Assembly (NCBI GenBank): GCA_035063765.1
Contig: JAPSFT010000017.1
Span: 1-64,000 of the forward strand
From: Deltaproteobacteria bacterium
GTDB lineage: Bacteria > Myxococcota_A > UBA9160 > PR03
Reading direction: 5' to 3'
Length of the DNA stretch: 64,000 bases
The notes under the pieces are model-generated. The model was not told the origin of the DNA, did no database searches, and saw only the letters and a list, made by a program, of their open reading frames with translations. Positions 34,454 through 62,110 of the stretch are shown here, piece after piece (the first letter of the stretch is position 1; the number at the start of each line of letters is the position of its first letter). The translations under genes were made by a program, and so were the position numbers.

Positions 34454-34490
34454 CCGCAGGTCTCCCGTTCGCGCGCGCCTCGCGGCGGCG

Positions 34491-38232: not shown

Positions 38233-38343
38233 CATCGCTCGCCCCTGGAACGTTGGCCCGGACCCGCGCGGCGGGACGTCCGGCGCTCGGGCAGCGGGGA
38301 CGAAGGGGGGAGCCGTGGGGAGAGCGGTGTGGGGGGAGTGGAG

Positions 38344-39555: not shown

Positions 39556-39577
39556 CCCGCGCGAGAGGAGAAGGACG

Positions 39578-43545: not shown

Positions 43546-43995
43546 TCAACCTCCTGCTTCCCGGCCGGCGCCCGCCGGCACGGCGCGCCGGAACTTCGGC
43601 AGCGTGACGCCCTCGGCCACCTCCTGGAAGACCACCACGACCGGAAGATCGATCCGGAGCTCCTCGACGGGGCAGTCCACCACCTCGCTGAGGATCCGCA
43701 CGCCCTCCTCGAGCTCGATGACGGCCGGCGCATAGGGGACGCGCGCCGCGAAGCCCGGGTGCATGGCGCGCGTCACGATCGTGTAGGTGAAGACGCGCCC
43801 GCGCCCGCTGGACGGCGTCCAGGTGAAGGCCGGCGAGCCGCAGGCCGCGCACAGTGCGCGCGGCACGTGCCGCCAGGCGCCGCAGGCGCTGCAGCGCTGG
43901 AAGCGCAGCTCGCCGCTCCGGCACGCCTCGTAGAACGCCCCGGCGAAGCCGTCCCGCCCGGGCAGGGGGAGGGCGCTCGCGTCGGCCGCCGTCAT
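43546..43995 (-). CDS. DUF35 zinc-ribbon/OB-fold protein, partner of aldolase-type thiolase
   Basis: 149 aa. Zinc ribbon CSACGAWRHVPRALCAACGS then OB fold (GRVFTYTIVTRAMHPGFAARVPYAPAVIELEEGVRILSEV). In steroid side-chain degradation the DUF35 part of ChsH2 and the cysteine-less thiolase Ltp2 form a retro-aldolase. Here the neighbouring thiolase also lacks the cysteine, so the same complex is likely. It lies 19 bp downstream of that thiolase. Confidence 0.9.
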   Translation of the reverse strand: MTAADASALPLPGRDGFAGAFYEACRSGELRFQRCSACGAWRHVPRALCAACGSPAFTWTPSSGRGRVFTYTIVTRAMHPGFAARVPYAPAVIELEEGVRILSEVVDCPVEELRIDLPVVVVFQEVAEGVTLPKFRRAVPAGAGREAGG

Positions 43996-45202: not shown

Positions 45203-46183
45203 CTACTTCACGCGCTTGGTCGGCTCGATCCGGGCGAGCCGCGCCAGGTTGAGCCCGAGGATCCCCGCGCGGATCTCGTCGGTGATCTCCGGGTAGCCCC
45301 ACTTCTCGCGCAGCTCGTCGGGCATCCGGAGCGTGCGTACCCAGTCCACGACGCGACGGGTGTCGTCGAAGGGCAGGTCGAGCCCCATCACGATCTTCTC
45401 GTGCGAGACCCACTGCAGCGCGGTCCCGATCGCGTGGTAGCCGCGGTAGGGCGAGCGCTGGTACCAGCCGACGATGCCCGAGAGGCTCAGGTAGAGGTTG
45501 CGGTGCTTGCCGGCGAGCCCGATCAGCTCCTCCGTGCGCGGCCAGCCCATGTGGTAGGCGATCACCTCGAGCTCGGGGAAGTCGAGGAGCACGCGGTCGA
45601 GGGCGCCGGGCATGCTGTGGGCGCTCGGCTGGGGCACGACGTACGACATCCCGGTGTGGACCGTGAGGGGTACGTGCAGCTCGCAGGCCTTCTCGTAGAA
45701 GGGCCACAGGCGCCGGTCGTCGAGGGGGCCCAGGTCCTCGGGCGCGTACACCTTGCAGAGCCGCGCGTTGCGCTCCTTGACCAGGTACTCGAGCTCCCAG
45801 ATCGCGTGCTCGACCCCGCGGCGCAGGATCGGGCCCACGTTGCACTCGAGGTAGACCCGCTCCGGGTAGGGAGCGATCTGCTCGAGCACGAAGCCGTTGC
45901 TCGACAGGCAGGTGGCGCCTCCCGTCACGTCCATCATCGGCTCGCGCAGGGCGAAGGCCACGTCGACCCCCGCCTCGTCCATGTGCTTGACGAGCTCGGA
46001 GGCGATCGGCGCCGGCCAGTGGGCGTCCTCGCCGGTGAGGCCGCGCCCCGACCAGGCGCGCATGACCCCGTCGACGCTCCCCCACCAGCGCTGGACGCCC
46101 GGGTAGTAGGCGATCTCGGCGAGGGTCTGCGGGTTCATCAGGTGGCACTCGGAGAGTGCGACGAAGGGTTCGGGCCTGGCCAC
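45203..46183 (-). CDS. Amidohydrolase-family (ACMSD-like) metal-dependent hydrolase or decarboxylase
   Basis: 326 aa TIM-barrel. Metal and active-site candidates: SECHLMNP near the N-terminus (one His rather than HxH), LTVHTGMSY, VIAYHMGWPRTEEL and the distal Asp in IVMGLDLPFDDTRR. This is the amidohydrolase_2 group, which includes decarboxylases and hydrolases of cyclic compounds. It is first in the operon with the aldolase-type thiolase, DUF35 protein and crotonase, so ring or side-chain cleavage is plausible. Confidence 0.85.
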   Translation of the reverse strand: MARPEPFVALSECHLMNPQTLAEIAYYPGVQRWWGSVDGVMRAWSGRGLTGEDAHWPAPIASELVKHMDEAGVDVAFALREPMMDVTGGATCLSSNGFVLEQIAPYPERVYLECNVGPILRRGVEHAIWELEYLVKERNARLCKVYAPEDLGPLDDRRLWPFYEKACELHVPLTVHTGMSYVVPQPSAHSMPGALDRVLLDFPELEVIAYHMGWPRTEELIGLAGKHRNLYLSLSGIVGWYQRSPYRGYHAIGTALQWVSHEKIVMGLDLPFDDTRRVVDWVRTLRMPDELREKWGYPEITDEIRAGILGLNLARLARIEPTKRVK

Positions 46184-48630: not shown

Positions 48631-49125
48631 TCAGCCCCCCGCGGCCCCGGCCGCGCGCAGCTTCGCCGCCGCCAGCCGGACCGCCTCGAGGATCGCCTGG
48701 TAGCCGGTGCAGCGGCAGATCTGCCCGCCGAGGGCCTCGCGGATCGCCTCGTCGCTCGGCTCGGGGTCGTCGGCCAGGAGCTCGTGGATGGTGAGCAGCA
48801 TGCCCGGCGTGCAGAAGCCGCACTGGAGGCCGCGCGCCTCCCGGAAGGCCTCCTGGATCGGGTGCAGCTCGCCGTCGCGCGCGAGCGCCTCGACGGTGGT
48901 GACCTGCGCCCCGTCGGCCTGCACGGCGAGCATCAGGCAGGAGCGCACGGCGCGGCCGTCGAGCAGCACGTTGCACGCGCCACAGACGCCGTGCTCGCAG
49001 CCGACGTGGGTGCCGGTGAGACCCAGCGTGTGGCGCAGGAAGTCGGCCAGCGTGGTGCGCGGCTCGACGCGCTCCTCGCGGGCGGAGCCGTTCACGACGA
49101 CGCGGATCGCCACCGGCTCAGGCAC
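48631..49125 (-). CDS. Molybdenum hydroxylase [2Fe-2S] subunit
   Basis: 164 aa from GTG 49125, overlapping the FAD-subunit gene by 8 bases. Plant-type cluster GCEHGVCGACNVLLDGRAVRSC and the helical-domain cluster LQCGFCTPGMLLTIHELL...GGQICRCTGYQAI are both complete. It passes electrons from the molybdenum site to FAD. Confidence 0.95.
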   Translation of the reverse strand: MPEPVAIRVVVNGSAREERVEPRTTLADFLRHTLGLTGTHVGCEHGVCGACNVLLDGRAVRSCLMLAVQADGAQVTTVEALARDGELHPIQEAFREARGLQCGFCTPGMLLTIHELLADDPEPSDEAIREALGGQICRCTGYQAILEAVRLAAAKLRAAGAAGG

Positions 49126-50002
49126 GCGCCACCTCGCCCGCCCGCGCGGCCGCTTCGGCCAGCGCACGCGCCGCCACGACGCCCGCCAGGTGGCGCCGGT
49201 AGTCCGCGGAGGCGTGGACGTCCTCGAGCGGCTCCTCGATGGCCTCGGCCGCCGCGCGCGCGGCCCGCCCGAGGGCCTCGGCGTCGGGGCGCTGGCCCGC
49301 GAGCAGGCGCTCCGCGGCCTCGGCGCGCAGCGGCGTCGCGCGGACGCCGAACAAAACGAGCCGGGTCCGTTCCACGCTGCCGCGCGCGTCGAGCGCGAGC
49401 GTCGCCACGGCCCCGACCAGCGCGAAGTCGCCGTGCCGGCGCGCGATCTCCTGGATCGACCAGCCCGTGCGCGGCGCCAGCACGGGCCAGCGCGCCTCGA
49501 CGAGCACCTCGGCCGGTCCGAGCGCGGTGGTGAGCGGGCCCAGGAAGAAGTCGCCCGCGGCGATCGAGCGCGCACCGGCGGGGCCGAGCGCACGCAGCTC
49601 GGCGTCGAGCAGCACTGCCAGCGCGGGGTACTCGGCGGCGGGGTCGGCCTGGGCCAGCGAGCCGCCCACGGTCCCGCGGGTGCGGATCGGCGGGTGGCCG
49701 ATGAGCTGCGTCGCCGCGCGCAGGAGCGGCTGGCTCCGCGCCACGAGCTCCGAGCGCTCGAGCTCGCGTTTGGAGGTCATGGCTCCCACCACGAGCGTCT
49801 GCCCCTCCTCCCGGATCCCGACGAGACTTCCGATACGGCGCAGGTCCACGAGCAGCGCCGGCCGCGCGAGCCGCATGGCGAGCAGCGGCACGAGGCTCTG
49901 GCCTCCGGCCAGGAGCATCGCCTCGCCCTCTCCGCGCGCGAGCAGCGCCACCGCCTCTTCCACGGTGCCGGGTGCAGCATACTCGAAAGGGGGCGGCTTC
50001 AT
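49118..50002 (-). CDS. Molybdenum hydroxylase FAD-binding subunit (CoxM-type)
   Basis: 294 aa from ATG 50002 (a GTG at 50020 would add 6 residues). FAD motifs LLAGGQSLVPLLAMRLARPALLVDL and GTVGGSLAQADPAAEYPALAVLL are present, and the C-terminal domain is typical. It is first in the order FAD, Fe-S, Mo subunits. Its promoter must lie in the 112-bp gap shared with the divergent crotonase gene. Confidence 0.94.
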   Translation of the reverse strand: MKPPPFEYAAPGTVEEAVALLARGEGEAMLLAGGQSLVPLLAMRLARPALLVDLRRIGSLVGIREEGQTLVVGAMTSKRELERSELVARSQPLLRAATQLIGHPPIRTRGTVGGSLAQADPAAEYPALAVLLDAELRALGPAGARSIAAGDFFLGPLTTALGPAEVLVEARWPVLAPRTGWSIQEIARRHGDFALVGAVATLALDARGSVERTRLVLFGVRATPLRAEAAERLLAGQRPDAEALGRAARAAAEAIEEPLEDVHASADYRRHLAGVVAARALAEAAARAGEVARA

Positions 50003-50114
50003 GGATCCCCGGAGCGCCACGAGGAACGGCCGATCCCAACCACGCGCGACTGCGGCACCATGACGGGGATCTCAGGAAGGGCGGCGCTCCGCGGGCGCCG
50101 CCGGGAGGGGCAGT

Positions 50115-51002
50115 ATGTCGTGGAGCGAGTGGAAGCGCAACGAGGGGGAGGGGCTCGATTTCCGCGAGATCGTGTACGAGACGAAGCGCCACGACGAGCT
50201 CGGCGGCGGGGTCGCGCGCGTCACCCTCCACAAGCCCGACCGCTTCAACGCCATGACGCTCGAGACGGTCGAGGAGATGTTCCGCGCCTTCTATGACGCC
50301 AACCACGACGACACGATCGGGGTCATCGTGGTGGCGGGGGCGGGCAAGCACTTCGGGGTGGGCGGCGACGTGGAGTGGGAGAAGTGGGGCCTGCGCGCGG
50401 CCTTCTACCACCGCTACCCGCACAACCGCCTGATCCGCATCTCGCGCAAGCCGGTGATCGCGGCCGTGCACGGCTACTGCCTGGGCGGGCACAACCACAT
50501 GGCCTACTGCTGCGACTTCACGATCGCGGCGGACGACGCGCGCTTCGGTCAGGCCGGCCCGCGCGTGTCGAGCCCGGCCGACGGGTTCTTCGTCCCGTAC
50601 CTGACCAAGGTGGTCGGCGCCAAGAAGGCGCGCGAGATGTGGATGCTGTGCCGGCGCTACAGCGCCGAGCAGGCACTCGCGATGGGCCTCGTGAACGAGG
50701 TGGTGCCGCGCGCCGAGCTCGACGCGGCGGTGGACCGCTGGTGCGAAGAGCTGCTTGCCGTGAGCCCCGGCTGCCTCGAGATCCTGAAGGCCGCCTTCGA
50801 CCAGGAGATGGACGGCTACGCGGAGCTCGGCGTGATCTCGAGCCAGCTCTACCCGAACTGGTTCGACCTGCCCGAAGGGCGCGAGGGCGGGGCGGCCTTC
50901 ACGGAAAAGCGTCGCCCGCGCTTCTGGAGCCTGCGCGAACGCGAAGCGCGGCTGCGCCGCACCCTCGTCGAGGCATACGAGAAGGAATCGGAGCGCAAGT
51001 AG
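50115..51002 (+). CDS. BadI/MenB-like crotonase-family enzyme
   Basis: 295 aa from ATG 50115 with GGGAGGGG upstream. GVARVTLHKPDRFNAMTLETVEEMF, VAGAGKHFGVGGDVEWEKW, VHGYCLGGHNHMAYCCDFTIAA and GQAGPRVSSPADGFFVPYLTKVVGAKKAREMWMLCRRYSAEQALAMGLVN. The last segment is shared by naphthoyl-CoA synthase (MenB) and 2-ketocyclohexanecarboxyl-CoA hydrolase (BadI). With no menaquinone genes near, a ring-opening role on a cyclic 2-ketoacyl-CoA is favoured. It is divergent from the Mo hydroxylase. Confidence 0.85.
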   Translation: MSWSEWKRNEGEGLDFREIVYETKRHDELGGGVARVTLHKPDRFNAMTLETVEEMFRAFYDANHDDTIGVIVVAGAGKHFGVGGDVEWEKWGLRAAFYHRYPHNRLIRISRKPVIAAVHGYCLGGHNHMAYCCDFTIAADDARFGQAGPRVSSPADGFFVPYLTKVVGAKKAREMWMLCRRYSAEQALAMGLVNEVVPRAELDAAVDRWCEELLAVSPGCLEILKAAFDQEMDGYAELGVISSQLYPNWFDLPEGREGGAAFTEKRRPRFWSLREREARLRRTLVEAYEKESERK

Positions 51003-51009
51003 GCGCGCG

Positions 51010-52275
51010 TCAGCGCGCGGGCCCGGCCGGCGTGCGCGCCGGGCGTGGCGCCCCGGCCGGCGCGAGCGTCGCGGCGGCGCCCGAGGCGACGAGGCCGGCG
51101 ATCTCCTGCGCGGGGAGGCCGAGCTCCGCGAGGACCTCCTCGGTGTGCTCGCCGAGCCCCGGCGGGTGGCGCCGCACGCTACCCGGCGTCTCGCGGAGCT
51201 TGATCGGGACGCCGGTCACGCGCACGGAGCCGAGCGCAGGGTGCGGCAGCTCGACGATCATGCCGTTGTGCAGCACCTGGGGGTCGGCGACGACCTCGGG
51301 CACCTCCTGGATCGGCGCGCTCGGCACGTCGGCCGCCACGAGCCGCTCGACGAGCGCCTCGCGCGGGAGCGCGGCGGTCCGCTCGGCGAGCCGCCGCTCG
51401 AGCTCCTCCTGGTTCGCCTGACGCGCCTCGACGTGCGCGAAGCGCGGGTCGTCGGCGAGCTCGAGGTCGAGGGCGGCGCACAGGCGGCGGAAGAACTTGT
51501 CCGAGGGACAGGTGATCACGACGCTCTTCCCGTCGGCGGTCGGGAAGACGCCCGAAGGGGCGAAGTACTGGCTGCGGTTGCCGGTCCTGGGCGGCGGCTC
51601 GCCGGCGTTGAGCAGGCTGCCGAGGTTGCTCGCGTGGGCGTGTACGGCCGCGTCGAGCAGCGAGACGTCGATGCGCTGGCCCCGCCCCGTGCGCTCGCGC
51701 ACGAGCAGCGCCGCGAGGGCAGCGCTGCACACGTGCTGGGAGGTCATCACGTCGACGAGCGGGACGAGCACGCGCACGGGCGGGCGGCCGGGCTCGCCGT
51801 TCATGGCGAGCAGGCCCGAATAGCCCTGGGCGAGGAAGTCGATCCCGGGCCGCCCGGCATAGGGGCCGTCGGGGCCGAAGGCGGTGACACCGATCCAGAT
51901 CAGGTCGGGCCGGTGCGCGCGGAGCTGCTCGTAGGCGAGGCCCAGGCCCGAGAGCGCGGGCTCGCGGACGTTCGTGATCGCGATGTCGGCGGTCGCCACG
52001 AGGCGCGCGAAGACGGCGCGGGCCGCCGCCTCGCGCAGGTCGAGCACGAGCGAGCGCTTGTTGCGGTTCAGGCTCAGGAAGGCGGTCCGCTCCCGGCCGC
52101 AGCGCGGGCCGAGGCGGCGGCTCTCGTCGCCGCCGGGGGGCTCCACCTTGACGACGTCGGCGCCGAGGTCGCCGAGCAGCGTGGCGCCGTAGGGCCCCGC
52201 GAGCATGGTCGCGAACTCGAGGACGCGGATGCCGGCGAGCGGCCCCGGAGCGGCTTCGTGGGACGGGCGGGCCAC
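51010..52275 (-). CDS. CaiB/BaiF-type CoA-transferase C
   Basis: 421 aa. GIRVLEFATMLAGPYGATLLGDLGADVVKVEPPGGDESRRLGPRCG at the N-terminus. The catalytic Asp equivalent is present in VPLVDVMTSQH, 20 residues before the RTGRGQ motif. Its C-terminus has an extra Ala/Pro-rich tail. It is last in the carboxylase operon, 9 bp after the next CaiB gene. Confidence 0.92.
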   Translation of the reverse strand: MARPSHEAAPGPLAGIRVLEFATMLAGPYGATLLGDLGADVVKVEPPGGDESRRLGPRCGRERTAFLSLNRNKRSLVLDLREAAARAVFARLVATADIAITNVREPALSGLGLAYEQLRAHRPDLIWIGVTAFGPDGPYAGRPGIDFLAQGYSGLLAMNGEPGRPPVRVLVPLVDVMTSQHVCSAALAALLVRERTGRGQRIDVSLLDAAVHAHASNLGSLLNAGEPPPRTGNRSQYFAPSGVFPTADGKSVVITCPSDKFFRRLCAALDLELADDPRFAHVEARQANQEELERRLAERTAALPREALVERLVAADVPSAPIQEVPEVVADPQVLHNGMIVELPHPALGSVRVTGVPIKLRETPGSVRRHPPGLGEHTEEVLAELGLPAQEIAGLVASGAAATLAPAGAPRPARTPAGPAR

Positions 52276-52284
52276 GCATGGACC

Positions 52285-53493
52285 TCAGGGAATGGCGCCC
52301 TGCGCCTTGAGCTCGCCGATCTCCTCCCAGCTGTAGCCGAGGGTGTCGGCGAGCAGGAGCTCGGTGTCCTGCCCGAGCTCGGGACCGAGCGATTCGACAC
52401 GTCCCGGTGTCCGGCTGAGCCCGATCGGGAAGCCGCGGATCGCGACCTGGCGGTCGACCTCGTGGCAGTGGGTCTCGAGCAGGTAGTCGTTCTCCCAGGC
52501 CTGCGGGTCGCGCGCCGCGTCCGCGAGCGTGCCGATCGGGCTCGCCGCGATGCCGGCGCTCCGCCAGCGCTCCATCCACTCCGCCACGCTGCGTCCCGCC
52601 ACGGTCGCGTCGAGGCGCGCGACGAGAGCACGGGCGTGGGTGCGCCGCCCGTCCGCGCCGGCGAAGCGCGGATCCGCGCCGAGGGCGTCGTCCCCGAGCG
52701 TCCGGCACAGCTTCGCGAAGGCCTCGTCCTGGTTCGGGACGCACAGGAAGAGCCAGCCGTCGCGCGCGCGATAGCGGTTCCAGGTCGGGTTCTCCGGCTC
52801 CTCGCGCGAGCGCTGCTGCGCGAACTCGCGGCGTCCCGTGGCGAGGTAGGCCTGGAGCGTCGGCGCGGTCAGGAAGAGCTGCGCGCCGTAGAGCGACGCG
52901 TCGAGCATCTGCCCCTGTCCGGTCCGGTTGCGGTGGTAGAGGGCGAGCAGGATCCCGAGCGCGGAGAGCAGCCCGCCGTAGGCGTCGCCCGAGCCCATGC
53001 CGAGGTAGATCGGCGGCTGGCCCGGCTCGCCGAGCCGCGCCATCAGCCCCGTCAGCGCCTGCACCGTCATGTCGAAGGACGGCCGGTCGACCTGGCCAAA
53101 CGCGCCGTAGCCGGTGTTGGTGGCGTAGACGAGCTTCGGGTTGAGCGCCCGCAGCCGCTCGTAGCCGAGGTCCCAGCTCGCGAGCAGCTCCGGACCCAGG
53201 TTCGAGAGGAACACGTCGGAGCGTTCCACCAGCCGGTCGAGGACCGCGCGCCCGGCCGGCTTCTTCAGGTCGACGGCGAGGCTCTTCTTGTTGCGGTTGA
53301 TGACGAGGAAGTACTGGTTCCAGTCGCCCACCGGCACGGCCTTGATGCTGCGCACGCCACGCGCCTGGTCGCCGCCCTGGGGCCGCTCGACCTTGATCAC
53401 CTCGGCCCCGAAGTCGGCCAGGAACTGGGCCGCGACGGGGCCCTGGAACCAGACCGTGAGGTCGATCACCCGGATGCCGTCCAACGCTCCCAC
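52285..53493 (-). CDS. CaiB/BaiF-type CoA-transferase D
   Basis: 402 aa from GTG 53493, preceded by GGGGAGGAG. Class III N-terminus (GIRVIDLTVWFQGPVAAQFLADFGAEVIKVERP), catalytic Asp in GSGDAYGGLLSALG, and RNRTGQGQMLDASLYG. It is 20 bp after a third member that lacks the aspartate. The two may form a catalytic/structural pair. Confidence 0.92.
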   Translation of the reverse strand: MGALDGIRVIDLTVWFQGPVAAQFLADFGAEVIKVERPQGGDQARGVRSIKAVPVGDWNQYFLVINRNKKSLAVDLKKPAGRAVLDRLVERSDVFLSNLGPELLASWDLGYERLRALNPKLVYATNTGYGAFGQVDRPSFDMTVQALTGLMARLGEPGQPPIYLGMGSGDAYGGLLSALGILLALYHRNRTGQGQMLDASLYGAQLFLTAPTLQAYLATGRREFAQQRSREEPENPTWNRYRARDGWLFLCVPNQDEAFAKLCRTLGDDALGADPRFAGADGRRTHARALVARLDATVAGRSVAEWMERWRSAGIAASPIGTLADAARDPQAWENDYLLETHCHEVDRQVAIRGFPIGLSRTPGRVESLGPELGQDTELLLADTLGYSWEEIGELKAQGAIP

Positions 53494-53513
53494 GAACCCG
53501 ACTCCTCCCCTCG

Positions 53514-54719
53514 TCAGGCGACGACGCCGCGCTCCACGAGCTCCTGGATGCGTGCCTCGCCGAGCCCGAGCAGTCCGTGCAGGATCTCGGCCGAGTGCTG
53601 CCCCGCGCAGGGCGCGAAGCGATCGAGGCGCGCCGGCGTCTCGCTCATGAAGATCGGGAAGCCGAGCGTGCGGATCGTCCCGGCGCCCGGGCGCTCGAGC
53701 TCGAGCACGTAGCGGTTGCGGCGTGCCTGGGGATCCGTCGCGGGGTGCTCGAAGTCCTCGATCACGTCCGCGCTCAGCCGGGCCTCGACGAAGCGCGCCC
53801 GCCAGTGCTCCCCGTCGTGGCAGGCGAAACGCTCCTCGAGCACGCGGATCAGCTCGAGGCGGTACTCGCCGCAGCGCTTCTCGTGGCTGTCGAAGCGCGG
53901 GTCGTCGACGGCGAGGCCCATGACCCCGGCGAGCCCCGGCCACCAGCGGTCGGTGTCGGGCATCGTGAGGCACAGCCAGCGCCCGTCCTTCGCCGGGTAG
54001 AGGACGCCGCTCATCGGGTTCCCGGCGTCGGTGCGCGCCACCGGCTGGGTCAGCCGGTCGCCGCCCATCGCGAGGAAGGCCTGCAGGTCGAGGCTCGCCC
54101 CGTACAGGTTCCCCGAGTAGAGCGAGGCGTCGACCTCCTGGCCCTCGCCGGTCCGCTGGCGGTGGACGAGCGCCACGAGCGAGCCGAGGGCGAGCAGCGC
54201 TGCCGTGTAGAGTGGACCGGCGCCCGCGTAGACGGGCGGCTCGCCCGGCTGCGGCAGGATCGGCATCATGCCCGTGCGCGCCGCGGCGAGCTCGTCGAGC
54301 GGCGGGAGCTCGCGGTCGGGCCCCTTCGGCCCGAAGCCGCTGCCCCGGGTGTAGACCAGGTCCGCGCGCAGCCGCGTCGCACCCGCCGGGTCGAGCCCGA
54401 GCGCCTCGAGCCGGTCGGCGGGCCAGTCGGTGAAGAGCAGGTCGGCCTTCGCGACGAGCGCGTGCAGGAGCTCGCGCCCGCTCGGGTCGTCGAGATCGAG
54501 GGCCAGGCCCTGCTTGTTGCGCTGCACGAGATCGGCGTCGTAGTCGTAGCGCGCGTCGGGATGGAGCGCGCGCGGCGCGCGCGGCGCCACGCGGCCCCGG
54601 CCGAGATCCTCGACGCGGATCACGCGAGCGCCGAAGTCGGCGAGCAGCGCGGCCCCGAGCGAGCCCCAGTACTCCGTGGTGAGGTCGACCACCACCACGT
54701 CCGCGAGGGCTGCGCCCAT
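53514..54719 (-). CDS. CaiB/BaiF-like protein with catalytic Asp replaced by Pro
   Basis: 401 aa from ATG 54719, overlapping the gamma-subunit stop by one base (TGATG). The fold is clearly class III (VVVVDLTTEYWGSLGAALLADFGARVIRVEDLG; HRQRTGEGQEVDASLYSG). The catalytic aspartate is 20 residues before the (R)TG motif in the four sibling proteins. The same position here is Pro169 (GAGPLYTAALLALG). The protein is probably a non-catalytic partner, or it catalyses something other than CoA transfer. Confidence 0.88.
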   Translation of the reverse strand: MGAALADVVVVDLTTEYWGSLGAALLADFGARVIRVEDLGRGRVAPRAPRALHPDARYDYDADLVQRNKQGLALDLDDPSGRELLHALVAKADLLFTDWPADRLEALGLDPAGATRLRADLVYTRGSGFGPKGPDRELPPLDELAAARTGMMPILPQPGEPPVYAGAGPLYTAALLALGSLVALVHRQRTGEGQEVDASLYSGNLYGASLDLQAFLAMGGDRLTQPVARTDAGNPMSGVLYPAKDGRWLCLTMPDTDRWWPGLAGVMGLAVDDPRFDSHEKRCGEYRLELIRVLEERFACHDGEHWRARFVEARLSADVIEDFEHPATDPQARRNRYVLELERPGAGTIRTLGFPIFMSETPARLDRFAPCAGQHSAEILHGLLGLGEARIQELVERGVVA

Positions 54720-55291
54720 CACGCCTTCCGGCGTGGGGCGGGCGCGGGGTCGCGGCGCCAGCTCCGGACCACCTCGAGCGTGCGATCCTCGAAGGCCTGC
54801 GCGTCCGGCAGCGGGCGGCCCAGCCAGTCGCGGTAGAAGCTGTCGAGGTCGGGCAGGAACTCGAAGTCCGGCGGACAGCCGCGCGGCACCGCCTCGACCT
54901 CGAGCTGGCTGCCGCAGCCCGGGCACACGTACTCGCGCACCTGGATCCAGGCGGGGTCGGGCGTCTCGCGGCCCCGGTAGACCTCGCGCAGGCTCGCCTC
55001 GTCCGCGCGCACGTGGATCAGCGCGGCGAGCTTCCAGTTCACGCGGTAGTCGCCGAACTCGTGCCCGCAGCGGCACTTGACGATGCGCGCGCCGTCCTTC
55101 GCGACGATGAAGAGCGCGGGCGTCAGCGGCAGCAGGATCCGCTCCGGCCACGGGACGCGGCTCTGCAGGATCTCCACGTACTTGTCGAAGCGGTCGGGGT
55201 CCTTGGGGCTGCGCATCATGTCCTGGACCGCGGGCCAGGGCAGCACGCCGTCCAGGAGCTTCTCGACGTCCGACTTGTGGAACTCGGCCAC
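54719..55291 (-). CDS. acxC: Acetone carboxylase-type gamma subunit
   Basis: 190 aa from GTG 55291. The small third subunit of acetone carboxylase: HKSDVEKLLDGVLPWPAVQDMMRSPKDPDRFDKYVEILQ at the N-terminus, then two zinc-type cysteine pairs, CRCGHEFGDYRVNWKLAALIHVR and YVCPGCGSQLEVEAVPRG. Presence of this subunit separates acetone/ketone carboxylases from plain hydantoinases. It lies 23 bp after the alpha subunit gene. Confidence 0.9.
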   Translation of the reverse strand: MAEFHKSDVEKLLDGVLPWPAVQDMMRSPKDPDRFDKYVEILQSRVPWPERILLPLTPALFIVAKDGARIVKCRCGHEFGDYRVNWKLAALIHVRADEASLREVYRGRETPDPAWIQVREYVCPGCGSQLEVEAVPRGCPPDFEFLPDLDSFYRDWLGRPLPDAQAFEDRTLEVVRSWRRDPAPAPRRKA

Positions 55292-55314
55292 GGGGCCTCC
55301 TCGCTGGGAGCGGA

Positions 55315-57510
55315 TCAGAACTCGAAGTCGGAGGGCAGGTCCCAGAAGGCGCGCAGCTCGGCGCCGTAGTCGGGCGAGAGCGCCATCGAGCTGCGCCACA
55401 TCTGGAGGACCGCGGGGTCCATGTCCTGCCGGGCGGCCACCCGCTCGCGCTCCTGCTCCCACCACTGCCGGAAGGGGATCGCGCGCGCCCGGCGCTCGCT
55501 GCGGATCTGCTCGCGGCGGGCGCGGGTGGCGGCCTCGTCCACCTTCCACTCCACACCGTCCGGCTTCGCGACGACGCCGTAGACGTCCTCGGCCACCCAT
55601 GGCCGGGTCCAGCCCCGGTCGAGATCCGCCGCGACCGCCGCCGGATCGCGCTCGAGGGGGTCGCCCATCGACTGGGCGCCGGCGACGGGGTGGATGATCA
55701 GGTCGCCCTCGACGAGCGGCTCGGGCGTCACGAAGGGCGCGATCACGCCCGTCTCGAGGCGGGTCGCCCGGATGTTCCGGGCGAGGTCCGGATCGTCCGG
55801 GTCGCCGCGCTCGTGCACGAGCGGCAGCCGTTCCGCGATCCGCTCGTTCAGGTTCGTCTCGTGCGCGAAGGCCGGCCGATCGGGGAACGCCGGGTAGGCG
55901 CCGAACATGCCGTGGTTCGCGATGGTCTTGCTGCGGATGCCGGCGCAGCCGCACTGGTACTCGATGCCGGGGGTGCCGTGGACCAGCCACACCGCCGTAT
56001 GGCCGAGCCCGCCGCGGTGCTGGCCGTAGCCGGACGAGTCCGGCTCGATGTTGCGGCCGAGGAACAGGACCGGGTAGAAGAGCTCGGAGATCTCGGCGTT
56101 GCCGAAGTCGGCGTTGGCGGTGTAGATGCACCAGGCGCTGTTCTCGCCGTCCGCGAAGCCGCGCGCGGGCTGGCCGTTCGAGGCCTGCTCGAGGGTGAGC
56201 CCCGCCACGTACACGCCCTGCTGGTTGATCCCGGAGAACTCGGCGGTCATGGTCGTCGCCGCGCCCGCCGCCATCTCCTCGACGAAGCCCCGCGCGTGGT
56301 AGAGGCGCCCCATCACCTCGTAGAGACTGCTCACCCACAGCACGGCGGGTGCCCAGGCGACGCCCGAGGAGGCGCTGAAGTCCTTCGGGAAGGGATTCGC
56401 CCACGAGCCTTCGGGGGGCGTCTCCATCCGCCAGGCCGCGGTCGGGCCCGAGTTGAACATGTCGAAGCCGACCACGTGCGAGTAGCCGTTCAGGAGCCCG
56501 GACTTGAGCGCGACCGGGCTGATGTTCTCGCCGAAGGGGACGGTCCCGGAGGCGCCGCGCAGCGAGATGCGGATCGTCGCGTCGGGGCGCACCTCGAGCT
56601 CCATCGGCAGGTTGAACAGGCAGTCCACGTCCTGCTTCGGGAGCAGCACGCGCTTGCCCTTCATGGCCAGGTCCTTGAACTGCGACTTGCGCAGGCGGCC
56701 CGGCACCGCCTGGGTGCGGATCCGCGACACCGCGTAGCGGCGGCTGTCCTCCACGTACTCCCGGCTCGCCTCCAGGAAGAAGTCGAGGCCGTACTTCTCG
56801 ATCACGCGGGTCAGCCGCTCGCGGACGATGAGGCAGCCCGCCAGCCGCCCGCGCGCGTCGCCCATCACCCAGTCCGGGGTGCGCGTGCGCGAACGCATGC
56901 GCATCTCGTACCAGGGGAAGTAGCGGTCCTTCTCGCCCACCTTCTCCATGGAGATGCACACGCCGTCGGAGTAGCAGTCCGGGTTCAGGAACCCGATCGA
57001 GCCCGGCGTCACGGATCCGACGTCGTTGGCGTGGCTCACGGCGCTGGCCCAGGCGACGAGGCGGTCCTGGTAGAAGATCGGCATCGCCATGTCGAAGTCG
57101 GGCGCGTGGATGCCGCCGTAGTGCGGGTCGTTGTTCTCGAAGATGTCGCCCTGGTGGAAGCCCGGGTACTCCTCGTAGCCGAGCTCGATGAAGTGGCGGA
57201 TCATGTCCGAGATCAGCCCGGGGTGGGCCGTGATCCCGCGCGAGATGCAGATCGCCTCGCCGGTCGGCAGGTGGAGCGCCCAGAGCGCGTCGCCGCCCTC
57301 GGCCGCGATCGGCGACGAGGAGACCTTGCAGCCCGCCACCCACGCCGTGTTGCACACGCTCGAGAGGATCTGCCAGACCGCCTCGTAGGTGCCCGGGTCC
57401 GACTCCTTGCGGGCGAGCCGCTCCAGGCCGAAGAGGTGCCCGGTCCGGGCGAAGAGCTCGTCGTTGCGCCCGAGCTGTTCCTTCAGCGAAAGGATGCCAT
57501 CGGTCGTCAC
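55315..57510 (-). CDS. acxB: Acetone carboxylase-type alpha subunit (HyuB-like)
   Basis: 731 aa from GTG 57510, overlapping the beta gene by 4 bases (GTGA). The metal-site segment ENNDPHYGGIHAPDFDM is at residues 125-140, and GYGQHRGGLGHTAVWLVHG and the C-terminal VIHPVAGAQSMGDPLERDP follow. In acetone carboxylase the Mn-containing alpha subunit joins the phosphorylated enol of the ketone to carboxyl phosphate. The substrate ketone here is not set by sequence. Confidence 0.9.
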   Translation of the reverse strand: MTTDGILSLKEQLGRNDELFARTGHLFGLERLARKESDPGTYEAVWQILSSVCNTAWVAGCKVSSSPIAAEGGDALWALHLPTGEAICISRGITAHPGLISDMIRHFIELGYEEYPGFHQGDIFENNDPHYGGIHAPDFDMAMPIFYQDRLVAWASAVSHANDVGSVTPGSIGFLNPDCYSDGVCISMEKVGEKDRYFPWYEMRMRSRTRTPDWVMGDARGRLAGCLIVRERLTRVIEKYGLDFFLEASREYVEDSRRYAVSRIRTQAVPGRLRKSQFKDLAMKGKRVLLPKQDVDCLFNLPMELEVRPDATIRISLRGASGTVPFGENISPVALKSGLLNGYSHVVGFDMFNSGPTAAWRMETPPEGSWANPFPKDFSASSGVAWAPAVLWVSSLYEVMGRLYHARGFVEEMAAGAATTMTAEFSGINQQGVYVAGLTLEQASNGQPARGFADGENSAWCIYTANADFGNAEISELFYPVLFLGRNIEPDSSGYGQHRGGLGHTAVWLVHGTPGIEYQCGCAGIRSKTIANHGMFGAYPAFPDRPAFAHETNLNERIAERLPLVHERGDPDDPDLARNIRATRLETGVIAPFVTPEPLVEGDLIIHPVAGAQSMGDPLERDPAAVAADLDRGWTRPWVAEDVYGVVAKPDGVEWKVDEAATRARREQIRSERRARAIPFRQWWEQERERVAARQDMDPAVLQMWRSSMALSPDYGAELRAFWDLPSDFEF

Positions 57511-59645
57511 GTCCCGGTCTTCCTCTCGAGCCAGTAGATGTCGTGCGCGTCGATGCGCAGGCGCCACTCGGCGGGAACGAACAGCGTGGTGTTGGAGGCC
57601 TCGACGACCGCCAGCCCCTCGATCCGGTTGCCCGGCACGAGCGCCTCCATGCGCCAGATGTCGGCGTCGGCCCAGCGACCGTGCTGGAAGACGGGCCGCG
57701 TGCCCGCGAAGGCCTCCGCCGCCGGCGCCGGCGCCGCGAGCTCGTGCTTGTGCAGGCGGGGCTTCACGGTGTCGACCCGGGCGATCACGCACACCTCGGT
57801 GATCTGGACCGTGCCCCGGTCCGGCTTCGCCGCCAGCGTGAACATCCGGGCATAGAGCTCCTCGAAGCGGTCGAGGAGCTTCTGCAGGTCCGCCGGCGTG
57901 TCGAGCGCGGGGGACGGCGCGGCGACCTCGACATCCTCGAGCTGGCCGTAGTAGCGCGCGTAGGCCACCTGCTGGAGCTCGATCTGGTCGCGCCGGAAGC
58001 CCTCGGCGAGCAGCTCCCGGAGCAGCTCCGCCTCGAGCTCCCGCCAGGCAGCCGCCACCGGGCGCACGATCCCGAGCCGGGTCGGGCCGTCACCGCCGGG
58101 CGGCAGTACGACCGACACGGTCTTGTGGCGGCGATGCGCGTAGTCCATGCAGGCGCCGCCCCAGGCCGAGAACGCCCCGGCGTGCGGCACCGTGATCACC
58201 GCCTTCCAGGGGTGGTCGCCGGCGTAGCCGAGCAGGTGCATCGGGCCGCCGCCGCCGTAGCCGAGCAGCACGTACTCGCGCAGGTCGTGGCCGACCATGA
58301 GGTTGCGCACCAGGTGCTCGCGCATCATCACGTTGAGCAGCTCGAGGCAGGTCTCGGCGGCCACGTGGACGTCGAGACCCAGGGGATCGGCGATCTTCTC
58401 CCGGAAGGCCTGGTAGGCGGCGTCCTTGTTCACGTGGAGCTTGCCGCCCAGGTAGTTGCGCTCGTTCAGGATGCCGAGCAGCAGGTTCGCGTCGTTGATC
58501 GTGGGGGTCGTGTTGCCCGCCTCGAGGAAGGCGGGGCCCGGGGTGCCGCCCGCGCTGTCGGGGCCGAGGCGGATCCGGCGCGTCTGGGGATCGAGCCGGA
58601 TGTAGGTCCCGGTGCCCGCGCCGATCGAGGTGATGTCGAGCATGGGGACGTTCACGTACATGTCCTGGAAGCCGGGCTCGCGGTCGATCGGGAGCACGCC
58701 CGCGGTGATGGCGCCGGCGTCGAAGCTCGTCCCGCCCACGTCCGAGCAGACGATGTTCTCCTCGCCGATCACGGTGCCGAGGTAGCGCGCGCCCATGAGC
58801 CCGCCGACCGGCCCCGACATCGCGGCCTCGAAGAGGCGCGGGTAGCGGATGTTCGTGATGCCGCCGTAGCCGAGCACGGTCTTCAGGCTGCGCTCGTAGC
58901 CGATGCCCGCGAGCTTCTCCTCGATCCGGAACAGCTGCTTGCGGGCCGGGTCGGAGGCGTAGGCCTGGATGACCGTCGCGTTCGCGCGCGAGATCTCCCG
59001 CATCGTGGGCGCCACGCGGCTCGAGAGCTCGAGCGGCACCTCGCGGCCCGCTTCCGCCATCACCCGGCGCACGATCTCCGCGGCGCGGTCCTCGTGGGCG
59101 GCGTTGGTGAAGGACTGGAGGAAGACGATCGCGAGCGCCTCGCACTGCTCGTCGACGAGCAGCTCGCGCGCGCCCCGCTCCACCTCGTGCTCGTAGAGCG
59201 GGATCACGACCCGGCCGAACATGTCGATGCGCTCGGTCACCCCGCGCGCGAGCCGGCGCGGCACGAGCGGGATGCGCGGCCGGCGGTACTGCATGTGGGT
59301 GATCTCGGACCACTGCGCGCCGATGATCGTCTGGGCGCCGCGGCCCTGGGCGATGATGTCCTCGAAGCCGCGGGTCACCAGGAGGCCCGTGCGCAGGCCG
59401 TTCATGTTGATGACCGTGTTGAGCATCGAGGTGCCGGTGTAGATCGCGGTCTCGATCTGCCGGCCGAAGCCCGGCATCGCGAGCCCCATCTCCTCGAGGG
59501 CCTCCTCGAGGGACTCCATGTAGCCCTGGCTCTCGTCGTGGGGGGTCGTGGCCGCCTTGCCGATCACGGAGCGGCCGTGCTCGTCGACGACGATCACGTC
59601 GGTCATGGTGCCGCCGGCGTCGCAGGCGACGAGATAGCGGGACAT
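57507..59645 (-). CDS. acxA: Acetone carboxylase-type beta subunit (HyuA-like)
   Basis: 712 aa. N-terminal ATP-binding motif DAGGTMTDVIVVDE (residues 9-22), second phosphate motif CSDVGGTSFDAGAI and AYASDPARKQLFRIEEKL typify the HyuA/AcxA family. It uses ATP to phosphorylate the ketone and bicarbonate. It heads the operon beta, alpha, gamma, CaiB, CaiB, CaiB. A degenerate copy of the shared palindrome is 63-82 bp upstream of its ATG. Confidence 0.92.
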   Translation of the reverse strand: MSRYLVACDAGGTMTDVIVVDEHGRSVIGKAATTPHDESQGYMESLEEALEEMGLAMPGFGRQIETAIYTGTSMLNTVINMNGLRTGLLVTRGFEDIIAQGRGAQTIIGAQWSEITHMQYRRPRIPLVPRRLARGVTERIDMFGRVVIPLYEHEVERGARELLVDEQCEALAIVFLQSFTNAAHEDRAAEIVRRVMAEAGREVPLELSSRVAPTMREISRANATVIQAYASDPARKQLFRIEEKLAGIGYERSLKTVLGYGGITNIRYPRLFEAAMSGPVGGLMGARYLGTVIGEENIVCSDVGGTSFDAGAITAGVLPIDREPGFQDMYVNVPMLDITSIGAGTGTYIRLDPQTRRIRLGPDSAGGTPGPAFLEAGNTTPTINDANLLLGILNERNYLGGKLHVNKDAAYQAFREKIADPLGLDVHVAAETCLELLNVMMREHLVRNLMVGHDLREYVLLGYGGGGPMHLLGYAGDHPWKAVITVPHAGAFSAWGGACMDYAHRRHKTVSVVLPPGGDGPTRLGIVRPVAAAWRELEAELLRELLAEGFRRDQIELQQVAYARYYGQLEDVEVAAPSPALDTPADLQKLLDRFEELYARMFTLAAKPDRGTVQITEVCVIARVDTVKPRLHKHELAAPAPAAEAFAGTRPVFQHGRWADADIWRMEALVPGNRIEGLAVVEASNTTLFVPAEWRLRIDAHDIYWLERKTGT

Positions 59646-59758: not shown

Positions 59759-60355
59759 TCAGTCCGCCGGGTGGCCCCGCAGGCGGCGCCACCAGCGTCC
59801 GAGAGCGGAGCGGAGGGCGCGCCAGAGTAGCGGGAGGAGAGCCAGCGGCTCGTCCGCGGCCGGAAGGGGCGCCCGCTCGCCGGTCGCCGACACGCCCGCG
59901 CCGGAGACCTCGCAGTGCCGGCGCACGCGCTCGGCGAACTCGCGGAAGAGCTGCTCGCCGACGCCCTGGATCATGCCGCGGCCCATCTGCTGGATGCGCC
60001 CCGTGAGGTCGATGCGGGCGTCGGCCAGGACCTCGGTGCCGCCCTCGGGCAGGGCCACGAGCTGGCTCGTGAGCGCGCCGCGGGCCGTGCCGCCACCGGT
60101 CTCGCGCCCTTCGCCCTCGATGCGAACGCGGTGCTGCGCCTCGTCGACCTCCACGAAGCGGACGCGCCCCTGGTAGCGCGTGGTGATCGCGCCGAGCTTC
60201 ACCTGGACCGCGCCGAGCACGGTGTGCTCGTCCACCTGCTGCTCGAGCTTCGCCCCGGGCAGGCAGGTCACGACCTGGGCCGGATCGAGGAGCAGGCGCC
60301 ACACCGTCTCGACGGGGGCCGCCACCTGGAATCGCTGCTGGATCTCGATCGCCAC
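59759..60355 (-). CDS. CoxG-like SRPBCC protein (carbon monoxide dehydrogenase subunit G family)
   Basis: 198 aa from GTG 60355. The START/Bet-v-1 fold with FQVAAPVETVWRLLLDPAQVVTCLPGAKLE and VQVKLGAITTRYQGRVRFVEVDEAQHRVRIEGEG is the CoxG signature. A C-terminal basic/Trp-rich tail (ALRSALGRWWRRLRG) may bind membranes. CoxG proteins tether molybdenum hydroxylases to the membrane. It likely serves the Mo hydroxylase at 46-50 kb. Confidence 0.9.
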   Translation of the reverse strand: MAIEIQQRFQVAAPVETVWRLLLDPAQVVTCLPGAKLEQQVDEHTVLGAVQVKLGAITTRYQGRVRFVEVDEAQHRVRIEGEGRETGGGTARGALTSQLVALPEGGTEVLADARIDLTGRIQQMGRGMIQGVGEQLFREFAERVRRHCEVSGAGVSATGERAPLPAADEPLALLPLLWRALRSALGRWWRRLRGHPAD

Positions 60356-60375
60356 GTCCGTTCCACTCCCCGCGC

Positions 60376-61020
60376 TCAGGGTCTCGCGTCGGCTCTCTGT
60401 AGCGCTTGTCGATAGTCCTCGCGCGTGTCGAGGTCGGCGGGCGGCTCGCCTTCGACCTCCACCTCGAGCAGCCACTCCGGGTGCGCGGCGAACAGCGCCC
60501 GCGCGCCCTCGTCGCCGCGCAGGCCGGCGAGCGCGGGCCACAGGCGGCGCGCCAGCACGACGGGATGGCCAGGCGTGCGCGCGCCCCCCGGCGCGCCGTA
60601 GACGGGCCGCGCCGCGGGGGCATGGCCGGCCCGGAAGGCCGCCAGCACGCGCTCGATCAGCCCGGCGCCGACCCCCGGCTGGTCGCCGAGGAGCACGACC
60701 GCCGCCGCCGCCCGCGGGTCGGCCGCGCGCAGGCCGGCGCGCAGCGAGGCCGCCTGCCCGCTCGTGCAGGCGGGGTCGTCGACCACGCGCACGACGCGCT
60801 CGTGCGGCAGCCGGAGGGCCGGCCCGATCTCGGCCGCACGCGGACCGAGCACGAGCACGATCTCGTCGAGCCGGGCGGCGGCCGCGGCGTCGAGCACGTG
60901 CTGGAGCAGCGGCCGGCCGTGCAGGGGCAGGAGCTGCTTCGCGCTGCCCATGCGCGCCGAGGCGCCGGCCGCCAGCACGACTGCGCTCGCGAACGCGTCG
61001 CCCCGGTGCTCAGCCGCCAT
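60376..61020 (-). CDS. mocA: Molybdenum cofactor cytidylyltransferase (MocA-like)
   Basis: 214 aa from ATG 61020. VVLAAGASARMGSAKQLLPLHGRPLLQHVL is the nucleotide-binding start of the NTP_transf_3 fold, with GDQPGVG as the metal Asp motif. It adds CMP to molybdopterin to make the cytosine dinucleotide form that CoxL-type enzymes need. It overlaps the XdhC-like gene by 11 bases. Confidence 0.9.
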   Translation of the reverse strand: MAAEHRGDAFASAVVLAAGASARMGSAKQLLPLHGRPLLQHVLDAAAAARLDEIVLVLGPRAAEIGPALRLPHERVVRVVDDPACTSGQAASLRAGLRAADPRAAAAVVLLGDQPGVGAGLIERVLAAFRAGHAPAARPVYGAPGGARTPGHPVVLARRLWPALAGLRGDEGARALFAAHPEWLLEVEVEGEPPADLDTREDYRQALQRADARP

Positions 61021-62110
61021 GGATGGGTCCACTGCCGAGGCAGAGGGCGGCGCCCTCGTGCCCGTAGCGCACGGTCTGGATCTCCGCGAGGATCGCGAGT
61101 GCCACCTCGGCGGGCTCGCGGCCGCCGAGGTCGAGCCCGATCGGCGCGCGCAGGCGCTCCAGCTCGGTGTCGGAGAGACCCTGCTCGCGCAGGAGGTCGC
61201 GGCGCCGCGCGTCCGTGCGCCGGCTGCCGAGTGCACCGACGTAGCGCGCCCGCGAGCGCAGCGCGTGGACCAGCGCCGGCACGTCGAACTTCGGATCGTG
61301 GGTGAGCACGACCACGTATGCGCCCGCATCGAGGCGGGCGGCGGCGAGCGCCTCGCCGGGCCATTCGTGCACGAGCGCGGCCGCTTCCGGGAAGCGCTCG
61401 CGCGTCGCGAGCGCGGTCCGCGCGTCGATGATCGTCACCTGGAAGCCGAGCGCCGGCGCGATCCGCGACAGCGCCGCGGCGATCTGCGTGGCGCCGACCA
61501 CGTAGAGGCGCTCGGGTGGCCCGACGGCCTCGAGGAAGAGCTCCGCGACGCCGTCCCGCCACGGCAGCTCGACGACCCGCGTCCCGCCCGCTGCGAGCTG
61601 GCCCTGCGCCGCCGCCCGCGCCGGCTCGTCGAGCGCCGCGTCGATCGAGCCCGTCCGTCCGCCCTCCGCATCCACCGCGAGCCGGCGGCCGCGCAGCGCC
61701 GCGGGCGACAGCGCGGTCGCGAGCGCGACGGGCCGCTCGGCCTCGACCGCCCGCACGAGGGCACGCCACGCCTCGTCCGCCGCGAAGGGCTCGATCAGGA
61801 GCTCGATCGAGCCGCCGCAGGACAGGCCGATCTCGAGCGCCGTCTCGTCGGCGATGCCATAGCGCGCGCGCGCCGGCGCCCCCTCCCCGAGCACCTCGAG
61901 GGCGCGCAGGAAGACGTCGCTCTCGACGCAGCCGGGGCCGACCGAGCCCGCCATGCGGCCGCCGCGCGTGCAGGCCAGACGCGCGCCCGGCCCGCTCGGC
62001 GCCGAGCCGTCGACGCGAACGAGCGTCGCGAGGGCCACCTCCTCGCCCTCGCTCTGCCAGCGCCCGATCTCGCGCAGGAGCTCGCGCACGGGCGCTCGGC
62101 TGGAGGGCAT
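61010..62110 (-). CDS. XdhC/CoxI-family molybdenum enzyme maturation protein
   Basis: 366 aa from ATG 62110 (a start at 62152 would add 14 residues). N-terminal XdhC domain (LVRVDGSAPSGPGARLACTRGGRMAGSVGPGCVESDVF, SCGGSIELLIEPF) and a C-terminal Rossmann domain (LYVVGATQIAAALSRIAPALGFQVTIID, YVVVLTHDPKFD, YVGALGSRRTDARRRDLL). It inserts sulfurated molybdenum cofactor into xanthine-dehydrogenase-type enzymes. It works with the MocA-like protein, and both are located 10 kb from the structural subunits. Confidence 0.92.
   Translation of the reverse strand: MPSSRAPVRELLREIGRWQSEGEEVALATLVRVDGSAPSGPGARLACTRGGRMAGSVGPGCVESDVFLRALEVLGEGAPARARYGIADETALEIGLSCGGSIELLIEPFAADEAWRALVRAVEAERPVALATALSPAALRGRRLAVDAEGGRTGSIDAALDEPARAAAQGQLAAGGTRVVELPWRDGVAELFLEAVGPPERLYVVGATQIAAALSRIAPALGFQVTIIDARTALATRERFPEAAALVHEWPGEALAAARLDAGAYVVVLTHDPKFDVPALVHALRSRARYVGALGSRRTDARRRDLLREQGLSDTELERLRAPIGLDLGGREPAEVALAILAEIQTVRYGHEGAALCLGSGPIHGG

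Follow-up and report, generated by a model that had tools for sequence, protein, structure and literature searches.

Acetone-carboxylase-type genes conserved with CaiB-family genes and a MenB/BadI-like crotonase: a possible carboxylative route for opening alicyclic ketone rings

What does an acetone-carboxylase-type enzyme do in a bacterium where its genes run directly into genes of the CaiB family of coenzyme A (CoA) transferases? The question is raised by the first 64,000 nucleotides of contig JAPSFT010000017.1 (here called the window) from a Deltaproteobacteria bacterium of the Myxococcota lineage UBA9160 (GCA_035063765.1). The window is contig C17, positions 1 to 64000, of the genome referred to here as G000, a 4.4-Mb assembly in 57 contigs with an estimated completeness of 96%. 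Ketone carboxylases of this type have been characterised for acetone and acetophenone. A previous reading of the window, made from its letters and open reading frames and here called the sequence-only reading, suggested that a ketone other than acetone is carboxylated and that the product then receives CoA by transfer.

The gene set does not end with the CaiB genes: it continues into a gene for a crotonase and then into the rest of a large catabolic island, a connection absent from the sequence-only reading. Our best explanation, put forward tentatively, is that a cyclic ketone is carboxylated, that CoA is added by a transferase made of 2 CaiB-family proteins, Cai1 and Cai2, and that the ring is opened by the crotonase. 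The broader statement, that bacteria of several phyla open steroid-like or other alicyclic ketone rings carboxylatively and without oxygen, using CO2, CoA supplied by Cai1-Cai2 and a separate MenB/BadI-type crotonase branch, is possible, although we regard it as unlikely in this full form. We found no published description of such a pathway for an acetone-carboxylase-type enzyme, and searches for papers in which acetone carboxylase appears alongside CaiB and BadI, or alongside steroids and a CoA-transferase, retrieved none.

The six-gene run and the identity of the carboxylase

Codon-based gene calling and Pfam searches identified 6 consecutive genes on the minus strand, in the order beta, alpha, gamma, Cai1, Cai2, Cai3, which together span positions 51010 to 59645 (Table 1). 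This bore out the earlier description of acetone-carboxylase-type beta, alpha and gamma genes followed on the same strand by 3 CaiB-family genes. The interval then given, 53514 to 59645, contains the carboxylase genes and the first CaiB gene, whereas the other 2 CaiB genes are located outside it. The spacings from beta to Cai3 are -4, +23, -1, +20, and +9 bp; 4 of the 5 are within the 20 bp claimed previously, and one is slightly longer. No terminator-like sites were found within the run. In the loci compared, neighbouring pairs from beta to Cai3 were never on opposite strands, and the junction between gamma and Cai1 was tight, with a median gap of about 18 bp in 22 loci. The order beta-alpha-gamma-Cai1-Cai2(-Cai3) was observed in Myxococcota, Binatota, Chloroflexi, and a Gammaproteobacterium. 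The arrangement is not due to chance, since about 20 genomes of the class to which G000 belongs show this order, as do genomes of other phyla, and since the strands always agree.

All 3 carboxylase subunits scored better against the solved acetone carboxylase subunits (517 bits for beta against 5M45_B, 353 bits and 32% identity for alpha against 5M45_A, and 154 bits for gamma against 5SVB_C) than against acetophenone carboxylase or hydantoinases. The models for the acetophenone carboxylase subunits gave scores below their curated cut-offs (381 versus 1500 bits for ApcC, 139 versus 1500 bits for ApcD, and 34 versus 250 bits for ApcB). In a tree of 56 beta-type proteins, several of which were long rows, the 42 proteins encoded by genes of this module all clustered in a long-stemmed clade of their own with 100/100 support. 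The acetone-carboxylase types joined this clade on a branch that also had 100/100 support, with the hydantoinases and ApcC on the opposite side, while the branching order among the acetone-carboxylase lines was weakly supported (88/34 and 89/36).

The manganese ligands of the acetone carboxylase alpha subunit are His150, Asp153, and His175 (PMC5543143). All 3 were invariant in the 37 alpha sequences of the module, as was His111. The position of a fourth ligand, Glu89, was occupied by Asp in 37/37 of these sequences and by Glu in 5M45 and in 4 other acetone carboxylase sequences, which is a conservative acidic change at the metal site, specific to the clade. In the same alignment, the alpha sequences from Sinorhizobium pSymB and Shinella (L196, L197) contained Gln at the position of the ligand His150. 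The gamma residues Cys73, Cys75, Cys123, and Cys126 were invariant in 32/32 sequences. The DxGGTxTD, DVGGT, and adenosine motifs of the acetone-carboxylase-type beta subunit were all present, in the form of DAGGTMTD, SDVGGTSFD, and GGTPGP, and were invariant or nearly so in 42 sequences. With manganese ligands, ATP motifs and gamma cysteines all conserved, the catalytic apparatus looks intact, with a clade-specific change at the metal site.

These data bear on the possibility that the alpha and beta subunits form an ATP-dependent hydantoinase, oxoprolinase or lactamase that opens a cyclic amide. The Pfam domains Hydantoinase_A and Hydantoinase_B are common to both enzyme types and would fit such an activity. 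Against it stand the gamma subunit with its 4 invariant cysteines, the placement of the hydantoinases beyond a fully supported branch, and His111, which is kept in the module and missing from the aligned hydantoinases. The beta tree, the gamma subunit and the manganese ligands thus agree in placing the enzyme outside the hydantoinase/oxoprolinase clade, membership of which would have refuted the sequence-only reading, and we consider a hydantoinase-type identity very improbable and largely refuted.

An ordinary carboxylase for acetone, or butanone, with CaiB genes beside it by chance would have the same three-subunit layout, ligands and motifs. Here the beta proteins form a separate long-stemmed clade and the neighbouring genes are conserved across phyla, whereas the acetone-carboxylase-type loci of Shinella and genome G005 had neither CaiB nor crotonase genes as neighbours. 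A purely acetone-related function with a fortuitous neighbourhood therefore seems improbable. Another acetone-carboxylase-type locus, in genome G086 (L086, contig C146), encoded a beta protein with 36% identity and displayed the gene order alpha-gamma-beta, with a CaiB-like gene of its own upstream and a crotonase gene downstream.

A CaiB pair, a third CaiB gene and a crotonase

The sequence-only reading referred to a CaiB trio. There are indeed 3 genes with PF02515 domains, but a scheme with 3 transferases is ruled out by the residue patterns and by the separability of Cai3. The column of the catalytic Asp in family III CoA-transferases, which we take to be Asp169 of formyl-CoA transferase, contained Asp in 0/35 Cai1 sequences (mostly Gln, Pro, or Ser), 34/34 Cai2 sequences, and 29/29 Cai3 sequences. 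Only Cai1 and Cai2 come after the carboxylase genes in L083, L084, L156, L159, and L164, and Cai3 is located upstream of beta in L148. Since Cai1 lacks the Asp that Cai2 carries, the two look like a single heteromeric transferase with one kind of active site, in which Cai2 would be catalytic and Cai1 a non-catalytic partner; Cai3 appears to be a separate enzyme. A second adjacent CaiB pair was found at positions 38329 to 40798 in the window, and is conserved near the crotonase gene in G022, G090, Acidimicrobiia, and Acidobacteria. Just beyond the window, an open reading frame of 828 amino acids (G000:C17:64266-66752, L001:4267-6753) contains 2 tandem CaiB domains, the halves of which align in G022 (L088) as adjacent separate matches.

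The crotonase gene adjoins Cai3 on the opposite strand. In searches against NCBIfam, its product scored 228.5 bits for MenB and 216.5 bits for BadI (TIGR03210, cut-off 467.6), both below the cut-off. It is 44% to 46% identical to annotated BadI proteins on plasmids, and tblastn searches of plasmids with the crotonase and beta proteins as queries retrieved only relatives of less than 60% identity. BadI and MenB share the motif S-x-D-x-G and a C-terminal Tyr that we take to be catalytic. The corresponding motif in the crotonase was S-P-A-D-G in 33/33 sequences and the C-terminal Tyr column contained Phe, with an invariant Tyr246 and Asp251 nearby. We rejected a plain annotation as BadI because of the score and the changed motif; the protein looks like a separate branch near MenB and BadI. 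One member of this part of the superfamily is EchA20, which clusters with MenB and opens ring D of steroids hydrolytically in a reverse Dieckmann reaction; its companion IpdC resembles FabK (PMC5380842). A crotonase of the ring-opening branch would be the natural third step after a carboxylase and a CoA-transferase.

The same family relationships leave room for a crotonase that is a ring-closing synthase like MenB, or a hydratase, in an island with a role in biosynthesis or in some other CoA pathway. The higher score for MenB than for BadI and the altered motif are in line with this, but the surroundings look catabolic, with an AcmB-like dehydrogenase, ETF, thiolases, hydratases, and CoA-transferases, and we find a synthase or hydratase decidedly improbable.

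To describe how widely the gene set occurs, the beta alignment was scanned over one genome per species; most of the genomes are metagenome-assembled genomes (MAGs), the labels of which may be wrong. The 50 beta loci were labelled as Myxococcota/Deltaproteobacteria, Acidimicrobiia, Binatota, Acidobacteria, Chloroflexi/Dehalococcoidia, Gammaproteobacteria, Gemmatimonadales, and others. One gammaproteobacterial locus, L148, was colinear over the stretch ECH, Cai3, beta, alpha, gamma, Cai1, Cai2, crotonase, thiolase, and ChsH2-like gene, and the order Cai1, Cai2, crotonase, thiolase, ChsH2-like gene was also present in a Halieaceae MAG and a Steroidobacteraceae MAG (L228, L229). Among 91 genomes of the class, 29 contained a member of the beta clade, 34 the crotonase, 35 Cai2, and 34 an AcmB-like gene. 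Fisher tests on these genomes, uncorrected for kinship, gave p values of 1e-9 for beta and crotonase, 4e-12 for beta and Cai2, 2e-15 for crotonase and the AcmB-like gene, and 9e-19 for crotonase and Cai2, which was the tightest pair with 32 shared genomes. The AcmB-like gene co-occurred with Cai2 as well as with the crotonase. In the 18 genomes outside the class that were reached from beta loci, a crotonase of at least 69% identity was present in 14 and a Cai2 protein of at least 61% identity in 13.

The proposed pathway and its substrates

We propose that the biotin-free, ATP- and metal-dependent carboxylase adds CO2 to an alicyclic ketone beside the carbonyl, and that the resulting beta-keto acid would receive CoA from the Cai1-Cai2 heteromer, while Cai3 may serve another acid of the pathway. 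The crotonase would then open the ring without oxygen, by a reverse Dieckmann reaction in which water cleaves the bond that joins the keto carbon to the CoA-bearing carbon. Pairs of thiolase and ChsH2-like proteins, hydratases and ETF would carry the product to central metabolism, and the AcmB/KstD-like dehydrogenase and the molybdenum hydroxylase may condition the ring beforehand. In this proposal each reaction, the order of the steps and the substrate are what we infer from gene content, order and conservation, from the clade, the ligand and catalytic-residue patterns, and from co-occurrence.

The genes of the surrounding island provide the clues to the substrate (Table 1). Steroid-like or other polycyclic alicyclic ketones are the likeliest substrates, judging from the AcmB/KstD-like dehydrogenase and the molybdenum hydroxylase linked to the module. 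The pairs of Ltp2-like and ChsH2-like proteins also point to steroid-like compounds, and the FabK-like flavoprotein is reminiscent of IpdC. The AcmB-like gene was the only one of its kind found in G000, and its product scored 615.8 bits for the curated 3-oxosteroid 1-dehydrogenase equivalog, below the cut-off of 789. Single-family searches of this incomplete MAG revealed no pair of IpdA and IpdB genes, with a single PF01144 gene, and no obvious KshA-type oxygenase, with one short Rieske match in a frame of 174 amino acids, and these results would fit a way of opening the ring that differs from the 9,10-seco pathway. By association, the gene content thus favours an oxygen-independent opening of steroid-like alicyclic ketones. 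Carboxylation of a menthone-type monoterpene, an early idea of ours, had no gene-level support in the literature searched, and such compounds are left as a possible substrate class.

Table 1. Features of the window, with positions on the forward strand
Feature	Position	Strand	Remarks
Carboxylase beta	57507-59645	minus	ATG start; Hydantoinase_A, Hydant_A_N, Hydant_A_C; ASKHA ATPase
Carboxylase alpha	55315-57510	minus	GTG start, 4-bp overlap with beta; Hydantoinase_B; manganese site
Carboxylase gamma	54719-55291	minus	PF08882 (acetone carboxylase gamma), 122.9 bits, cut-off 21
Cai1	53514-54719	minus	PF02515 CoA_transf_3; without catalytic Asp
Cai2	52285-53493	minus	PF02515 CoA_transf_3; catalytic Asp in GSGDAYGG
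Cai3	51010-52275	minus	PF02515 CoA_transf_3; catalytic Asp; separable from Cai1-Cai2
MenB/BadI-like crotonase	50115-51002	plus	candidate ring-opening hydrolase
CoxM-type FAD subunit of molybdenum hydroxylase	49118-50020	minus	start 50020 or 49963; FAD_binding_5, CO_deh_flav_C
CoxS-type 2Fe-2S subunit	48631-49113	minus	gene call and sequence; conserved between CoxM and CoxL
CoxL-type molybdenum-binding subunit	46197-48629	minus	MoCoBD_1/2, Ald_Xan_dh_C; below every NCBIfam equivalog cut-off
Amidohydrolase_2 (PF04909)	45203-46183	minus	conserved beside molybdenum hydroxylase; no NCBIfam match at 1e-20
Thiolase/Ltp2-like protein	44015-45181	minus	best solved match 6OK1 (lipid-transfer protein, Ltp2 structure), 256 bits
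ChsH2-like zinc-ribbon/OB-fold partner of thiolase	43546-43995	minus	PF01796, PF12172
Enoyl-CoA hydratase-type crotonase	42770-43543	minus	sequence; conserved position
FabK/nitronate-monooxygenase-like flavoprotein	37054-38160	minus	directly divergent from beta in many relatives
Second thiolase, ChsH2-like protein, ETF alpha/beta	33275-36729	minus	linked to carboxylase in relatives
AcmB/KstD-like 3-oxosteroid 1-dehydrogenase homologue	28066-29790	plus	7P18, 566.6 bits, 48.8% identity over 547 amino acids
CoxG, MocA-like, XdhC-like genes	59759-62089	minus	probably for maturation of molybdenum enzyme
Acetoacetyl-CoA synthetase	15037-16938		TIGR01217, 936 bits, cut-off 521

Several observations speak against the proposed sequence of steps. 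Nine genomes (G074 to G077, G028, G038, G052, G013, and G014) keep Cai2, but no carboxylase was found in them, and most of the 9 retain the crotonase and the AcmB-like gene. In G074 to G077 and G028, the carboxylase is absent from its usual place, so that CoxG is directly followed by Cai1-Cai2-Cai3, with the crotonase kept. The CaiB genes therefore have a closer association with the crotonase than with the carboxylase, which Cai1-Cai2 and the crotonase can do without. Acidimicrobiia show another arrangement: the operon of the molybdenum hydroxylase, CoxMSL, also includes the carboxylase, amidohydrolase and thiolase genes and an additional gamma gene, and the Cai/crotonase block is found some 20 kb away on the same contig. 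The two substitutions in the MenB/BadI motif residues (S-x-D to S-P-A-D, and Tyr to Phe) mean that ring hydrolysis by the crotonase is not assured. Furthermore, the case for a steroid substrate is drawn entirely from homology of the neighbouring genes, related genomes in the co-occurrence counts are not independent, and in G067 and G071, which contain the carboxylase, Cai1-Cai2 and the crotonase, no AcmB-like gene passed the threshold applied, so that more than one ketone may be a substrate of the module.

A rival explanation is that the island degrades more than one compound, with the carboxylase acting on one substrate and the CaiB/crotonase proteins on another. The carboxylase would then take acetone or a ketone released from a side chain, with the acid passing to the acetoacetyl-CoA synthetase, and Cai1-Cai2 would activate a ring acid of other origin, much as FadD3 activates HIP, before the crotonase opens the ring. 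This is suggested by the 9 genomes that have Cai2, and mostly the crotonase and the AcmB-like gene, without the carboxylase, by the position of the carboxylase away from the Cai genes in Acidimicrobiia, and by the presence of the synthetase in the window. That gene, noted in the sequence-only reading as an alternative activator, is real, but no close homologue was found among the neighbourhoods of the relatives. The carboxylase clade, which is not nested among the acetone types and has an invariant Asp in place of Glu89, and the tight gamma-Cai1 junction, retained in several phyla, also argue against separate substrates. We consider such a division of labour possible, if on the doubtful side.

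Carboxylation of a cyclic ketone followed by CoA transfer and ring opening remains our leading explanation, and it retains the idea in the sequence-only reading of a carboxylate-then-CoA-transfer route for a ketone other than acetone, given the conserved link between carboxylase and CaiB genes and the placement of the enzyme outside the ordinary acetone group. In one respect that idea needs modification: the carboxylase resembles an entry module that feeds a shared core, and Cai1-Cai2 need not act on the acid that it makes.

A few features of the island and its relatives deserve a record of their own. Five genomes (L177, L178, L179, L183, and L193) have no carboxylase between CoxG and Cai1, which may represent a natural loss or the state before a gain. 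In the acidimicrobial loci L130, L136, L144, L160, and L161, a gamma gene is located between the thiolase and the ChsH2-like gene of the molybdenum hydroxylase operon, mostly in addition to the one adjacent to alpha. An identity of CoxMSL as CO dehydrogenase was not supported, as the CoxL motif is SPYRGLG and not of the AYxCSFR type, and the cut-offs were missed. A gene for 87 amino acids at 36766 to 37029, next to the FabK-like flavoprotein, had no Pfam match and was 58% to 78% identical across phyla. Upstream of the island, an AurF-like diiron protein is encoded at 25755 to 26717, with a ferredoxin-type gene as its neighbour.

If the proposal holds, the ketone carboxylase family would extend to cyclic ketones through a widespread clade that is linked with CoA-transferases and with a crotonase of the ring-opening type. 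Such rings would then be opened in a further way, in addition to the oxygenase route (9,10-seco) and the hydrated-dione route (2,3-seco). It would also provide a testable oxygen-independent breakdown of sterol-like or alicyclic organic matter in lineages of the Myxococcota UBA9160 type, Acidimicrobiia, and Chloroflexi, groups in which such pathways have so far been conjectured mainly on the basis of genome content. One example is the SAR202 Chloroflexi, for which CaiB expansions and the degradation of steroid ketones were put forward on that basis (PMC5395668).

Comparison with known systems

The module resembles the acetone carboxylase AcxABC of Xanthobacter and Aromatoleum (5SVB, 5M45) in its 3 subunits, manganese ligands, ATP motifs, and gamma cysteines. 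It differs in forming its own clade, in having Asp at the position of Glu89, and in its conserved companions, which are a CaiB pair, a crotonase, and a molybdenum hydroxylase. Closer in logic is acetophenone carboxylase, ApcABCDE, with benzoylacetate-CoA ligase, where a ketone is carboxylated and the CoA thioester is made by the products of one operon (PMC5214803). However, the module has no second ASKHA protein (alpha') or epsilon subunit adjoining it, its CoA would come from family III transferases and not from a ligase, and the Apc system opens no ring, unlike the pathway proposed here.

The 2-oxocyclohexanecarboxyl-CoA hydrolases BadI and MrcE, along with MenB, represent the crotonase branch to which the module crotonase is related, and it would likewise act on a cyclic beta-ketoacyl-CoA. 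It departs from them in the motif Asp, which is shifted by one position, in having Phe for Tyr, and in scoring below both curated cut-offs. The ring D opening system of Mycobacterium and Rhodococcus (EchA20/IpdC) is similar in combining a crotonase of the MenB branch, a FabK-like flavoprotein, Ltp2/ChsH2-like proteins, and a KstD-like enzyme in one island, whereas in G000 no IpdAB pair or large Rieske oxygenase was found, activation would be by CaiB proteins, and a ketone carboxylase is present. The anaerobic 2,3-seco steroid pathway (AcmB, AtcABC) shares the AcmB-like dehydrogenase and a molybdenum enzyme of the xanthine oxidase family with the island; in the parts of its description consulted here (PMC6208644), neither a ketone carboxylase nor a CaiB step is named. 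Finally, succinyl-CoA:benzylsuccinate CoA-transferase, BbsEF, provides a parallel for Cai1-Cai2, in that 2 gene products form a CoA-transferase that activates an acid of the pathway.

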